DNA of 64,000 nt from a virus, in the IMG/VR virus record IMGVR_UViG_3300035661_000009, positions 96,016 to 160,015 of that record. The stretch is one strand, 5' to 3'. The notes below the pieces were generated by a model. The model was not told where the DNA came from and did not search any database. It saw only the letters and a program-made list of their open reading frames with translations. Both the position numbers and the translations under genes were made by a program. The first letter of the stretch is position 1. Each line of letters opens with the position of its first letter. Shown piece after piece: positions 158 through 16,363 of this stretch.

Positions 158-520
158 TTAAAGCCACTCCACAGTAATTGGGTTAAATGGATCGTTAGTC
201 GAATAAACGATCTTATCAACGCCTGCATTACGCAAAATAACCTCACAATCAGAGCACGGCCTACTCAAACCGTATGGTTGTTCCTTACGCAAACGAACAA
301 TATATACGGTAGCTCCCCTCAACTCGCCCGGATTAAGTTTATTAAAGGCGTGGATTTCAGCATGGATCCCGGTAGCATACATATTCCTACCAGTCGCAAT
401 AACCCTACCGCCCTTAATAATTACGCAACCATGGCGATGATTATCTGTAACCTTAGCGGCGAGCTTAGCAGCGAGCTTAATATAACTTTGGTCCCGCCTG
501 CTAGCGTTCTCGGTTCGCAT
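158..520 (-). CDS. cytidine/deoxycytidylate deaminase-like protein
   Basis: This 120-residue protein carries the zinc-dependent deaminase signature: HAE at residues 53-55 (zinc ligand His and catalytic Glu) and PCSDC at 88-92 (two Cys zinc ligands). Known family members deaminate dCMP, cytidine, or other bases and nucleotides. In phages they usually feed dUMP to thymidylate synthesis or edit modified nucleotides. The length fits a single-domain deaminase. The substrate cannot be told from sequence, because no clear dCMP-deaminase extension is visible. It sits in the leftward operon downstream of two orphan genes and the GAT-II/amidoligase pair. Confidence 0.85.
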   Translation of the reverse strand: MRTENASRRDQSYIKLAAKLAAKVTDNHRHGCVIIKGGRVIATGRNMYATGIHAEIHAFNKLNPGELRGATVYIVRLRKEQPYGLSRPCSDCEVILRNAGVDKIVYSTNDPFNPITVEWL

Positions 521-531
521 ACCTCACCCTA

Positions 532-1116
532 TCACGACCCGATCGGCCACGCAAGGGGCGCAGAAGAGTCAATATCGCAAGCATCTATCTCATTTGAAGT
601 GTCTGTAGGACCTGCCAGTTTACTCAGCCTATTAGGATCTGTAAATGTCTCCCACATAGCATCAATAATAGCTGGATCAGTCTTCAGACTTGAAGAATTT
701 ACAGTATTTACAGTATTGACAGTATTGACAGTATTTACTGGCACTTGTCCGATATAACTAGGGCTAGGCTGGCCCATCAAATTCTTCTTAGCTAGCTCCG
801 TTACGATATCATTAAGAGATTCGGAATTGTCCTCTCCCTCGATTTCAGTAATCTCATTTTCTTCAGCAATTTCTCCCAATTCTTCATGTTCGTCTGAATA
901 ATAGGGAACTCCTGACAAAACTTCGATTAACGCGCTAGGAACGACATAAAGAACCAGATCGTTATCAAACGATACTTCAACCTCTTCTTTATCTAGCCTA
1001 ATAGTCACGACTTCATTAGTGTAAGAGTTTTCCATACACCACTCAGTCTGAGACATTTCAATAAAGCCCTGCGAAATCATGAGATCAATACACTTGTCGT
1101 ACATTTGTGGGGTCAT
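532..1116 (-). CDS. acidic orphan protein with NTV tandem repeat
   Basis: This 194-residue acidic protein has no recognised domain. The first 70 residues look folded (Cys/Trp-containing, mixed alpha/beta). The middle is Glu-rich, and near residues 129-140 there is an in-frame tandem NTV tripeptide repeat, encoded by a near-perfect 9-base DNA repeat around 700-740. It is followed after 11 bases by the deaminase gene. The start at 1116 is the first ATG after the intergenic repeat at 1153-1185. Confidence 0.7.
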   Translation of the reverse strand: MTPQMYDKCIDLMISQGFIEMSQTEWCMENSYTNEVVTIRLDKEEVEVSFDNDLVLYVVPSALIEVLSGVPYYSDEHEELGEIAEENEITEIEGEDNSESLNDIVTELAKKNLMGQPSPSYIGQVPVNTVNTVNTVNTVNSSSLKTDPAIIDAMWETFTDPNRLSKLAGPTDTSNEIDACDIDSSAPLAWPIGS

Positions 1117-1193: not shown

Positions 1194-1607
1194 TTAACTA
1201 AGGTTCGTTACAAAAAAAGACAAAAAAGACGCCGGTACTTCTTGTGTCATTTGCCAACTGCCAATTTCACTAATAGTTACTTCCATGGCTTTCCGCCATA
1301 CCAACCTTAGGATTTCGTTACGGAGCTTTCCCATATTTTGATTTAAAATCTCAATATTCTGAGAGCTTGGACGGAGATAGTTTGATAAAGCATTTCTAAA
1401 AAGATAGCGATGTTGCTGATATTTATACTGTGGCGCAATATTTACCTTCGGATCGCGCAAAACATTTTCTACATAAATATTATACATAATCCCGTGAAAC
1501 ATCCCAAGCTCTTTAGTAAGAAGAGAGATAATTAGTGGCTCTTCAATTAACATTCCAATTTGGGAAGCGTCGCGAACCGTTAAAACGCGTTTATAATTAT
1601 TCCACAT
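1194..1607 (-). CDS. orphan protein, 137 aa, mostly helical
   Basis: The protein is rich in Leu, Ile, Asn and Arg and looks helical. It contains a segment around residues 60-90 with many Tyr, Gln and Arg. No catalytic motif is recognised. It is the first gene of the operon started by the TTGACG/TAGGGT promoter at 1800-1828. A long leader of about 185 bases holds two alternative hairpins. A homolog cannot be named. Confidence 0.7.
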   Translation of the reverse strand: MWNNYKRVLTVRDASQIGMLIEEPLIISLLTKELGMFHGIMYNIYVENVLRDPKVNIAPQYKYQQHRYLFRNALSNYLRPSSQNIEILNQNMGKLRNEILRLVWRKAMEVTISEIGSWQMTQEVPASFLSFFVTNLS

Positions 1608-1799: not shown

Positions 1800-1828
1800 A
1801 CCCTAGCACGTCAAGGGGTGGGCGTCAA
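1800..1828 (-). promoter_or_regulatory. promoter TTGACG-17-TAGGGT (leftward)
   Basis: The -35 TTGACG is at 1828-1823 and the -10 TAGGGT at 1805-1800, with a 17-base spacer and TG two bases before the -10 (extended -10). The same pair of boxes recurs at other operon starts in this window. The -35 lies in the loop of the hairpin at 1813-1840. Confidence 0.75.
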
Positions 1829-1840
1829 GGCCCACCCCTT
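1813..1840 (-). terminator. GC-rich hairpin overlapping the next promoter
   Basis: An 11-bp perfect stem (1813-1823 with 1830-1840) with a 6-base loop lies just downstream of the stop of the glutamine amidotransferase gene. No U-run follows, so it may be a weak terminator or a 3'-end stabiliser. Its loop and 3' arm double as the -35 box and spacer of the following promoter. Confidence 0.55.
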
Positions 1841-1858
1841 GGATATTATCTTACTGTA

Positions 1859-3010
1859 TTACTTAACGCCCTTTACTACAATACTTTCTCCATGATCGTT
1901 ATGCTTCAGCCAACCAATACCTGAGACATACTCAAGTTCTTCCAAATCGTCTAAATCAACTTCTTTTTCCTCGCCGCTTTGGAAACTCTCCCACGCTTCC
2001 GATAGTGTTTCTACGTCTTCTGTATGACGGCGATCCGCTTCTAAAAAACCATTTACCACCTGATCGTAGGTGCGTCCCTGACCACTACCACTACCGGTTG
2101 AAATAATTGTCCCGTCTTTTGATGTAGTTGTGATATTTGAAGCGCCTCCATTAGCTAGTGGTGGGGTGGGGCGGCCACGAAGACTTGAGTATTCAGAATT
2201 ACTTGAGTCATCTTCTGACCAATTACCGCTAACGCTAAAATCATATGCCCTGTTATAGCCTCGATATTGATTCATACCACGCATATCAGCACCACCATTA
2301 CGCCAATCAGGCATATAAGTATTGTATCGGCTCTGGAATTCGAGCTTCATATCTTCCTTATACAGACAGCCGTCTTGAATGTAATACACTTGTCCGGTCT
2401 CGATTTTGAATTCAAAAGTATCGATACCAGCGGCTTTAATAGCCATTTCCGCATGACCATCATCGCTTGACCAAATAATACCAGTAGCTTCATCGGCATT
2501 TTCGCTTGCCTTAATCCCATGTACCGAAAGATCGCCACCACTTAGCTTACATAGATAAATACGGGTCGGATCTGACTTCCGAGTCCATACAATACTTCCA
2601 TAACCCGACAAATCCGACAAATCCTTATCTTCATTTAAATGAGCGAAGATATGCATCGAATCTACTTCAAACTTACGGTTATACTTAATTTGGAGTTCCG
2701 AATGGTTCGTAATAATCCCATTATGTGCGCCAATAATATCGCCAATATCAAATGGATGGCTATTGGCGGCACAAATAGATCCTGTAGTCGCCTTTCTAGT
2801 ATGGCCAATTAGCCTATCTTTGCCAATTAGAAGGCGGGCCCGTTCGGTTAGCTCCCCTACGCCGCGAGTTAGATTAGCAAAATCATAGAACCCCCAGCTA
2901 TCACCACCTCGCGAATCATTTCCAATAGCTAAAATTGCCGCTACCATTGCCTTTTGTTCATTTGATACGCCACTATTTTCAGTATACTCGAAGCCCAGAA
3001 GCCCACACAT
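1859..3010 (-). CDS. class II glutamine amidotransferase (Ntn hydrolase)
   Basis: This 383-residue protein begins MCGLLGF, giving the N-terminal nucleophile Cys2 of GAT-II enzymes after Met removal. Further family motifs follow: GHTRKATTG near residues 89-97, and an HPFDIG...GAHNGII segment near 105-118. The first 200 residues match the glutaminase domain that frees ammonia from glutamine. No sugar-isomerase, PRPP-transferase or asparagine-synthase partner domain follows. The last 170 residues are Ser/Gly/Asp-rich and probably disordered. The gene lies 44 bases downstream of the zinc-ribbon/amidoligase gene in the same operon. I infer that it supplies ammonia, or a glutaminase activity, to that ligase. 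Confidence 0.9.
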   Translation of the reverse strand: MCGLLGFEYTENSGVSNEQKAMVAAILAIGNDSRGGDSWGFYDFANLTRGVGELTERARLLIGKDRLIGHTRKATTGSICAANSHPFDIGDIIGAHNGIITNHSELQIKYNRKFEVDSMHIFAHLNEDKDLSDLSGYGSIVWTRKSDPTRIYLCKLSGGDLSVHGIKASENADEATGIIWSSDDGHAEMAIKAAGIDTFEFKIETGQVYYIQDGCLYKEDMKLEFQSRYNTYMPDWRNGGADMRGMNQYRGYNRAYDFSVSGNWSEDDSSNSEYSSLRGRPTPPLANGGASNITTTSKDGTIISTGSGSGQGRTYDQVVNGFLEADRRHTEDVETLSEAWESFQSGEEKEVDLDDLEELEYVSGIGWLKHNDHGESIVVKGVK

Positions 3011-3054
3011 TGATTATAGCCTTTCTTTAATTAGTTAAAAATTAATTCTAATTC

Positions 3055-4275
3055 TTACTTATCGCCAAACTTCTTCTTACGCTCAATTAGCCAATCTTTT
3101 ACGGTCTTATTGGGAGCAATGCTGTGAAGAATCATGAAACCTTCCCCCTTCATGTTCTTAATCTCCTTTTCAGACATTTCGAAAGCATAATCGATAATAC
3201 TCGCCCATAGCATGGCCCAGTTAGTTATATTTTCGTAACTAACAGTACCTTCAAACAAGCGGCATTCGAAGGTTCCACGGAAAATGTACGAATGGATATT
3301 CAAAGCGCCGTACCGAGCGTTATGATACTTCTCCCCACGTACGCTTGCAAGCGATTGGTTCTTGACACCATAGACATTTTCTACGATCTTCTTACCATTT
3401 TCTTGCGGAACCGCGAACTTCTCTAGATCCTTAATGTACTTCTTGGCCGTTCTTGCACAATACCTAGTGTTATTGCGACGAACATCGGGCATTAGGTCGA
3501 ATAGCGTATCCTCTAGCTTATCATAAAGGAAGATTAGCTTACGTACATCGAAGAACGTGTAATCGCGAGCGTCTACGTGAATATGATAACCGCAAGAATC
3601 GTTAGCTACTGCCCCAATTTCCTTCAATTCGTCAGTAATTTCCTTAACTTGAGTAAGGAAGGTATCGCCTTGAGCCGGAGCAGTATTAATTTCGAATGGA
3701 GAACCTCCATGAATACTTCCATCATGGACGATACCACCCCGCCAATTAGTTACAATAGTAGCTAGGTTGGCGCCAGACTTAACTAAATCAGCTACTTCCA
3801 ATTCAGCAGAAAGGAATCGTTCTGATTTATTTACCTTAAAAGTCTCGCTTGTGTGGAATTTCGGTTGACGCGGACCAGTTACATAAACCGCTAGTTCATC
3901 CCGGCAACTACAGCAATTATCACAATTGCCACAAACATTATGTGTTTGTACATCGCGAGCCCCGCAATCGGCACAGCGCACGCAGTCACAGCAATTATTG
4001 CAATTATCACATGAAGAACAAGCGTTGTCGGCAGCCGAAGAATGAGACGTATTACAATTCGGGCAATTCCAACACTCACAGCAATTGGCACAATCGTTGC
4101 AAGTAAAACAAGTATCTTGGCTAATAGTCGTGCAACGTGAGCATTGAATACAAATGCATTCATCGTTGGGAACGCTACATACAGCGCAAGTATCTACGGG
4201 AGTTGTGGGAGTTGTGGGAGTTGTGGGAGTTGTGGGAGTTGCAGAAACTACGGGCGGATCGATATTAGAAGGCAT
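3055..4275 (-). CDS. zinc-ribbon array fused to GS-fold amidoligase
   Basis: This 406-residue protein has two parts. Residues about 30-130 hold many CxxC pairs in tandem (several knuckles with CxNC and CxxC spacing), typical of zinc ribbons. Residues about 148-400 match phage and bacterial COOH-NH2 ligases of the glutamine-synthetase fold (Amidoligase_2-like). The ligase motifs are an ExE in SAELEV, HDGSIHGG, an E in FEINTAP, SCGYHIHVDARD, an RNNTRYC element, and a GTFECRLFEGT element. Such enzymes form amide bonds with ATP. A threonine/proline tripeptide repeat (TPT) near the N terminus is encoded by a 9-base tandem repeat. It overlaps the start of the neighbouring gene's stop region by 11 bases and precedes the GAT-II gene. 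The zinc array may recruit a protein or nucleic-acid substrate (inference). Confidence 0.85.
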   Translation of the reverse strand: MPSNIDPPVVSATPTTPTTPTTPTTPVDTCAVCSVPNDECICIQCSRCTTISQDTCFTCNDCANCCECWNCPNCNTSHSSAADNACSSCDNCNNCCDCVRCADCGARDVQTHNVCGNCDNCCSCRDELAVYVTGPRQPKFHTSETFKVNKSERFLSAELEVADLVKSGANLATIVTNWRGGIVHDGSIHGGSPFEINTAPAQGDTFLTQVKEITDELKEIGAVANDSCGYHIHVDARDYTFFDVRKLIFLYDKLEDTLFDLMPDVRRNNTRYCARTAKKYIKDLEKFAVPQENGKKIVENVYGVKNQSLASVRGEKYHNARYGALNIHSYIFRGTFECRLFEGTVSYENITNWAMLWASIIDYAFEMSEKEIKNMKGEGFMILHSIAPNKTVKDWLIERKKKFGDK

Positions 4276-4453
4276 TTAGAGCTTCCTCTCGGTTAATGAA
4301 CTTCATATTCTCTTCTTTAAGCATCTTATTAAGATACTTCGTAATGTTCCTCGTATGGGTTAGGGCATCGTGAACGTCAGTCGCAGGAGGATTATCCTGC
4401 ATATCTTCTACTTCACTCTTTAGCTTCTCAATCATTTGAACTAGATCGTCCAT
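4265..4453 (-). CDS. small coiled-coil protein, 62 aa
   Basis: This acidic, helical protein has heptad-like Leu/Met/Ile spacing at both ends. It is the first gene after the promoter at 4508-4536 and overlaps the amidoligase gene by 11 bases, so the two are probably translationally coupled. It could be an accessory subunit of the amidoligase (inference from position only). Confidence 0.7.
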   Translation of the reverse strand: MDDLVQMIEKLKSEVEDMQDNPPATDVHDALTHTRNITKYLNKMLKEENMKFINREEALNAF

Positions 4454-7003: not shown

Positions 7004-7049
7004 ATAACAACCAAACTAACTGTAACTATTAACGAAGTCAATCCGTTAA

Positions 7050-7148
7050 CCACTGCTCAACCACTGCTCAACCACTGCTCAACCACTGCTCAACCACTGC
7101 TCAACCACTGCTCAACCACTGCTCAACCACTGCTCAACCACTGCTCAA
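7050..7148. repeat. nine tandem copies of an 11-bp unit
   Basis: The unit CCACTGCTCAA is repeated nine times without any mismatch (99 bases). It lies in the transcribed leader between the leftward promoter at 7174-7202 and tRNA-Tyr at 7003. No gene crosses it. The 11-bp period is close to one DNA helical turn. Confidence 0.97.
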
Positions 7149-7173
7149 CCAACCCGTCCGCTACCGCCCGACA

Positions 7174-15631: not shown

Positions 15632-16363
15632 ATGAACTTCAAATTTCATGACAGTAAGGGCGACGTAAAGCGGTTTCTAGGCGTTGAAATGGAAGTTTCA
15701 CATATAGGCGACCGAAGTAAGGTAGCTAAGGTAGTTGAAAAATGGGGCGGCGAAGTAGGCTCAGATGGCAGTATTGATCCTGAAGATACCGACATTGGTA
15801 ATCGTTCTTGTGGAGATACTGCCGAAATTCGTACGGCCCCCGCCAGAGGAGAGTTGTTTGAACAGCAGATAAAAGAAATCTGTGAAGTATTGGTGGCTAC
15901 TGGCGGCAAAGTCAATGAATCATGTGGGTTACACGTTCATGTAGACGCCCGAGACTTCAACTCAGACGACATATTCAAGACCGTTCTTGTATGGGAGAAA
16001 TACGAATCGCAGATGTTCCAAAAAGTAGCTAAGCACCGTCGAGATAATGACTACTGTGAAGCCATTGGCGACACTTTTGCCAGTATTGTAAGAGGTGACG
16101 GGTTCCCTATGGTGAAGCTAGAAAAAATTAAAAATGAGTGGCAAGATCTAGATAAGCACTGTTCGCTTAATTTAATCAATCTTGAGCACCTCGGTACGAT
16201 TGAAAACCGTATGCATGAAGGTACGATAGATGCTGAGAAGATAATCGCTTGGGGTAAGCTAAACAGCAAACTCATCGACTTCTGCAAGAAGAGTGATCTA
16301 AAATCAGTAACTAATATGAAGGCGTTCTCGACTCGCAGTTTGGGAAGTTATCTACGGAAGTAA
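15632..16363 (+). CDS. GS-fold amidoligase, single domain
   Basis: This 243-residue protein has the same motif order as the C-terminal part of the gene at 3055-4275: GVEMEV near residue 18, GSDGSI, EIRTAP, SCGLHVHVDARDF, RRDNDYC, HCSLNL and a final ENRMHEGT. It is therefore a paralog without the zinc-ribbon array. These COOH-NH2 ligases form amide or peptide bonds with ATP. Here no amidotransferase is next to it. It lies between a lipoprotein-like gene and a tRNA-like element. Substrate unknown. Confidence 0.85.
   Translation: MNFKFHDSKGDVKRFLGVEMEVSHIGDRSKVAKVVEKWGGEVGSDGSIDPEDTDIGNRSCGDTAEIRTAPARGELFEQQIKEICEVLVATGGKVNESCGLHVHVDARDFNSDDIFKTVLVWEKYESQMFQKVAKHRRDNDYCEAIGDTFASIVRGDGFPMVKLEKIKNEWQDLDKHCSLNLINLEHLGTIENRMHEGTIDAEKIIAWGKLNSKLIDFCKKSDLKSVTNMKAFSTRSLGSYLRK

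Follow-up and report, generated by a model that had tools for sequence, protein, structure and literature searches.

An apparently pared-down phage amidoligase/glutamine amidotransferase cassette whose ligase carries an N-terminal cysteine array

Known amidoligase cassettes and the present locus

The founding analysis of the phage amidoligase cassette is reportedly that of Iyer et al. in 2009 (doi 10.1039/b917682a). A cassette of amidoligase, class II glutamine amidotransferase (GAT-II), ATP-grasp, second ligase, and GGCT has been named the ‘peptidoglycan modification cassette’ and proposed, expressly as a hypothesis, to block superinfection, with the GAT listed as a degradation enzyme (PMC5498523). 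The amidoligase and GAT core is seen in the gene table of UFV-P2 (PMC3890496), and amidoligase cassettes have been reported in OM43 phages (PMC10580990) and in prophages (PMC11318856); we found no experimental or biochemical test of the function of the amidoligase/GAT-II cassette in this literature. The cassettes of phiEco32, 7-11, PA11, tf, LUZ24, PaP3, and RIO-1 resemble the locus described here in that Amidoligase_2 and GAT-II genes adjoin in a tailed phage. Unlike these cassettes, however, the present locus has a long cysteine array on its ligase, and whereas the cited cassette carriers are podoviruses, the present phage is large and contractile-tailed.

The locus lies in a 64-kb window (the whole stretch of DNA that was analyzed), which forms the end of a virus record of 160,015 bp. 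Its features, in window coordinates, are as follows.

1811..1842, hairpin directly after the GAT-II stop (12 perfect pairs as RNA, -28 kcal/mol)
1859..3010, minus strand, full GAT-II ORF (P0001, 383 aa, starting MCG)
2342..3010, minus strand, class II glutamine amidotransferase (Ntn hydrolase) domain, P0001 residues 1-223, with Cys2 nucleophile, R72, H85, N97-G98, and D117
3055..4275, minus strand, full amidoligase ORF (P0002, 406 aa)
3088..3861, minus strand, Amidoligase_2 (GS-fold COOH-NH2 ligase) catalytic domain, P0002 residues 139-396
3898..4194, minus strand, cysteine array, P0002 residues 28-126, N-terminal to the ligase domain and presumed to bind metal
4198..4241, minus strand, Thr-Pro linker close to the P0002 N terminus, encoded by 4.9 perfect copies of a 9-bp tandem repeat
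4265..4453, minus strand, 62-aa ORF sharing 11 nt with the start of the amidoligase ORF
15632..16363, plus strand, second, array-less amidoligase (P0004, 243 aa; PF12224, E=5.7e-20, 68.5 bits)

A sequence-only reading of the window had placed a GAT-II gene 44 nt from an amidoligase, and this arrangement was confirmed: the two ORFs are separated by exactly 44 nt (3011..3054), GAT-II lies downstream, and both proteins score above the Pfam cut-offs, for PF13522 and PF12224, respectively. The minus-strand order is the 62-aa ORF, the amidoligase, and then GAT-II, and the hairpin at 1811..1842 probably marks the end of the transcription unit. The same reading had included a small coiled-coil gene in the operon. 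The 62-aa ORF does exist, but it had no homologue in any relative locus examined; it was therefore dropped and, on this comparison, is probably not part of the system. The downstream ORFs at 532..1116 and 1194..1607 were dropped likewise because no homologues were found beside related pairs, and no further pathway genes were recognized beside the pair. Elsewhere in the window, a dCMP deaminase-like protein (PF00383, E=5.9e-12) is encoded at 158..520 on the minus strand, three genes downstream of the pair, and a perfect tandem repeat of 9.5 copies of the 11-bp unit AACCACTGCTC lies between tRNA genes at 7048..7151.

Because the record encodes a tail sheath, baseplate, portal, endolysin, and tRNAs, it was assigned to a contractile-tailed phage. 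Over their full length, its tail sheath and that of Myxococcus phage Mx1 are 46% identical. We searched Mx1 for an amidoligase and a GAT-II and found neither; the pair is therefore an accessory trait in this phage lineage. Contig JAGWUP010000007.1 (165 kb), assigned by binning to an Elusimicrobia MAG, has a sheath and a portal 49% and 50% identical, respectively, to those of this phage and, from these similarities, looks like an Mx1-like relative of this phage; its portal match is interrupted by stops, and so this gene may be broken or contain sequence errors. Other genes of the record include a Cpn60/TCP-1 family chaperonin (locus L169, 6283-8451, plus strand, about 25.8-28.0 kb of the genome; E=8.4e-26) and two large genes with intein/homing endonuclease domains (L168, 16183-19044, minus strand, and L170, 5739-8264, plus strand), among them Intein_splicing with LAGLIDADG and Hom_end_hint. 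Adjoining the portal gene is a 665-aa protein (L168, 11252-13246, minus strand) that matches PI3/PI4-kinase at 31.3 bits against a curated cut-off of 27.1, and a long stretch at about 68-96 kb of the genome (L171 and L172) is poor in ORFs, with few above 110 aa and four tRNA genes.

The second amidoligase of the window, absent from the sequence-only reading, lies 11 kb from the pair and is 31% identical to P0002 (E=2e-33). It has no GAT-II beside it, and a single GAT-II was found in the whole genome. The Mx1-like contig JAGWUP010000007.1 carries two array-ligase/GAT-II pairs together with a third, array-less ligase that is 32% identical to P0004. ATP-grasp, the PF14395 (COOH-NH2_lig) ligase, and GGCT were not found in the 160-kb record, the PF14395 search being one that matched no control genome, and no class I GATase was found in this genome. 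The cassette genes not found could lie elsewhere, given that the record is possibly incomplete.

Catalytic domains of the ligase and the glutaminase

Both enzymes of the pair were examined by profile search, conservation analysis, and structure prediction. P0002 matches Amidoligase_2 (PF12224) over residues 192-359 with E=2.2e-28 and 100 bits against a cut-off of 22. Its residues Asp185, Ser187, Glu195, His231, His233, Asn326, Glu337, and Arg339 are invariant in 39 relatives, in which Glu158 and Glu160 are nearly invariant. The AlphaFold2 model is confident over residues 140-404, with pLDDT mostly above 90 and lowest near residues 270-320, and the first Foldseek matches of this model are YbdK (1r8g, E=1.8e-5), bifunctional glutathione synthetase, and glutamine synthetases. 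The TM-scores of these ligase fold matches are low (0.35-0.41). P0002 is thus predicted, at modest TM-scores, to fold like GS-type enzymes, and the acidic, His, and Arg residues of its active site are conserved. As a single-protein query, P0002 gave no match in a scan of IMG/VR; alignments were required as the query.

P0001 matches GATase_6 (PF13522) with E=3.2e-7 and 30.9 bits against a cut-off of 27. Its relatives all share Arg72, His85, Asn97, Gly98, and Asp117, and conservation of Cys2 reaches at least 90%. In a PDB profile comparison, P0001 aligns with GlmS over residues 68-110, a stretch that includes Arg72, His85, Asn97, and Gly98, which are glutamine-site residues in this family. The AlphaFold core is confident to about residue 220-225 (pLDDT about 92-98); residues about 230-383 are modeled with low confidence, and this tail is probably mostly disordered. 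Foldseek matched the model to GlmS (1xff, E=2.5e-12) and also to PurF and EgtC (4zfk), P0001 being closer to the glutaminase domains of GlmS and PurF than to EgtC. As judged from these residues, the class II glutaminase site of P0001 is intact. Overall, the assignment of the two enzymes in the sequence-only reading withstood both structure prediction with fold search, which returned a YbdK/GS-like ligase and a GlmS-like GAT-II with intact active sites, and the conservation check on the Asp, Glu, His, Asn, and Arg positions of the ligase motifs. The wider interpretation given there was borne out in part, by these assignments and by the tight pairing of the two genes in relatives; its suggestion of array-directed tagging, perhaps of a host or phage protein, stays putative.

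The cysteine array and its association with GAT-II

Residues 1-138 of P0002 contain 27 cysteines and 18 overlapping CxxC motifs, and the unit of the tandem array is CxxC-x(4-14)-CxxCxxCxxCCxC. An alignment of five relatives, of which the other four share 36-41% identity with the first, shows 14 invariant positions in the array, every one a cysteine. The CCxC signature occurs in 17 amidoligase ORFs of our survey (fewer distinct contigs, because some loci overlap), and two or more CCxC units were, in the fetched loci, confined to amidoligase ORFs. Unit number varies among relatives, and the array of one ligase of the Mx1-like contig (L249) holds an exact duplication of one unit. In other lineages, the array at this position is of a different, LIM-like type, in one case (L101) with a weak PF00412 match (E=0.004) below the curated cut-off; at the level of sequence, array types differ between lineages.

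The earlier reading of a zinc-ribbon array stood in part: the paired cysteines are conserved, but the CCxC arrays matched no zinc-ribbon or other relevant family in Pfam, and the AlphaFold pLDDT of the array is below 50 over most of its length. PDB profile matches of the array to PriA, RING, and LIM proteins (E 0.06-1) were rejected because they look like noise from cysteine composition. As far as sequence comparison goes, the array module is real and conserved, and ‘zinc ribbon’ is a working name only. Because its cysteines are conserved, the array is predicted to bind metal.

To place the array among phage amidoligases, we surveyed 283 amidoligase ORFs, which fell into 153 clusters at 60% identity, 132 of them with enough flanking sequence to be judged. 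N-terminal CxxC arrays were present in 53 of the 132 clusters, and GAT-II lay within 1.5 kb in 51 of these 53, compared with 41 of the 79 array-less clusters. One of the two array clusters counted as lacking GAT-II has it 2.0 kb away. The second scan was partly queried with array-type sequences; in loci retrieved with ligase queries only, GAT-II accompanied 39 of 41 array clusters and 14 of 50 array-less clusters (Fisher p=1.6e-11, a value that ignores shared descent), and a first, smaller survey gave 7 of 7 and 12 of 40, respectively. Conversely, when GAT-II served as the sole query, 77 of the 80 loci retrieved also contained an amidoligase. In the nearest relatives, the array-ligase is followed by GAT-II, the two genes either overlapping slightly or lying no more than about 0.4 kb apart, and no single ORF fusing ligase and GAT-II was found in the survey.

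In a tree of 100 ligase domains, every array row has GAT-II, and the array label needs eight changes, at least three of them forced by well-supported branches; just three independent contrasts lie on well-supported branches. The link between array and GAT-II thus partly reflects common descent. Further, among GAT-paired ligases, neighboring ATP-grasp, F38, class I GATase, and GGCT genes are rarer with the array than without it. F38 is a divergent family in which a short motif resembles those of ligases, and it may be of the PF14395 type. Because 41 array-less clusters have GAT-II, pairing as such needs no array, which leaves substrate choice or a lineage-specific mode of docking as candidate roles of the array.

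Readings of the pair and comparison with known systems

The reading that we favor, at somewhat short of even confidence, is that the pair works as an amidating ligase that depends on glutamine, with the array as the site at which GAT-II or a macromolecular substrate docks. From its fold and conserved residues, the GS-fold amidoligase would use ATP to activate a carboxylate, and the adjacent class II glutaminase would split glutamine and supply ammonia. The N-terminal array would fold around metal, most likely zinc, and act as the module that recruits either the GAT-II partner or a macromolecular substrate. Most likely, a carboxylate of a peptide or protein would be amidated, and this product would alter the infected host; candidate targets are the host's wall peptides, as has been hypothesized in print for the wider cassette, and proteins of the phage or host. 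On this reading, the locus would be a reduced version of the established phage amidoligase/GAT-II cassette, and because this genome yielded no ATP-grasp, F38 ligase, class I GATase, or GGCT, two genes may suffice.

The ammonia supply stays putative because P0001 also resembles EgtC, a gamma-glutamyl amide hydrolase, and related cassettes hold gamma-glutamyl-cleaving enzymes. It is conceivable, though doubtful, that the two enzymes instead make and break the same kind of bond, the ligase joining a gamma-glutamyl group to an amine as EgtA, YbdK, and PuuA do and GAT-II cleaving the gamma-glutamyl amide as EgtC does, so that the outcome is a remodeled metabolite or wall peptide and no ammonia is delivered. 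The ligase fold is indeed nearest to YbdK and glutathione synthetase, GAT-II also matches EgtC (4zfk), related cassettes hold GGCT and a Peptidase_C26/class I GATase, and the cassette GAT has been classed as a degradation enzyme (PMC5498523). However, GAT-II matches the ammonia-transferring enzymes GlmS and PurF better than EgtC, and neither GGCT nor a class I GATase was found in this genome.

An unlikely reading is that the locus belongs to a full peptidoglycan modification and superinfection exclusion cassette whose remaining genes are unrecognized, lie elsewhere, or have been replaced by the amidoligase at 15632..16363. The amidoligase and GAT core shared with the published phiEco32, LUZ24, and RIO-1 cassettes, the two amidoligases of this genome, and the two pairs plus third array-less ligase of the Mx1-like contig are all consistent with it. 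Against this, searches of the 160-kb record yielded no COOH-NH2_lig (PF14395), GGCT, or ATP-grasp, it is hard to see what a cytosolic metal array would do in the modification of wall peptides, and the cassette literature examined contains no experimental test of the function.

GS-fold carboxylate-amine ligases commonly make metabolites, and this, with the YbdK and glutathione synthetase matches, would suit the synthesis of an amide or peptide metabolite for use in infection, such as a derivative of an amino acid or polyamine. We consider such a role improbable, given that no more pathway genes were recognized beside the pair and that it leaves the metal array on GAT-linked ligases unexplained. 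DNA hypermodification was rejected because no base-modification pathway was recognized beside the pair and a literature search linking amidoligases to hypermodified phage DNA came back empty.

Returning to the glutamine-dependent amidating ligase, we also considered, as a rather unlikely extension, that such pairs form a phage protein-amidation or tagging family in which exchangeable metal-binding cysteine modules choose the macromolecular target; by exchanging array units or adding copies of them, phage lineages would have directed the same conserved ligase/GAT-II core to new targets. Amidoligase/GAT-II pairs occur widely among phages, and an array that guides the ligase to a macromolecule would give phages a class of glutamine-fueled protein modifiers. 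The array marks GAT-linked ligases, and its compact, repeated units make it an obvious bait for a partner or substrate.

Among named phage records, the top match for both P0001 and P0002 is Caudoviricetes sp. ctUh1700 (MW202637), which has the same gene order and a Cys-rich stretch directly before the ligase domain but differs in its 684-aa ligase with a long extra N terminus, its fewer CxxC motifs, and a small ORF between the genes. The combination of CCxC-unit array, amidoligase, and GAT-II recurs at 32-40% identity in IMG/VR contigs (L088/L173, L093, L099, L175, and L179) and in two copies (L249 and L250) in the phage-like contig JAGWUP010000007.1. GS-fold ligases of the YbdK/EgtA type and the GAT-II domains of EgtC and GlmS are alike in fold and catalytic residues at low sequence identity; to our knowledge, these are cellular metabolic enzymes without cysteine arrays. 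The Pup ligase PafA also has a GS-fold and modifies proteins, and it is a weak structural match (4bjr, E=5.5e-3, TM 0.2). The fusion had at first seemed undescribed in phages. The pair proved to be a published phage cassette and the fusion to occur in dozens of phage contigs; no description of an array-amidoligase fusion was found in a limited literature collection covered by titles and abstracts. The array, apparently undescribed, is thus a recurrent feature of an amidoligase and GAT-II pair that is already known.
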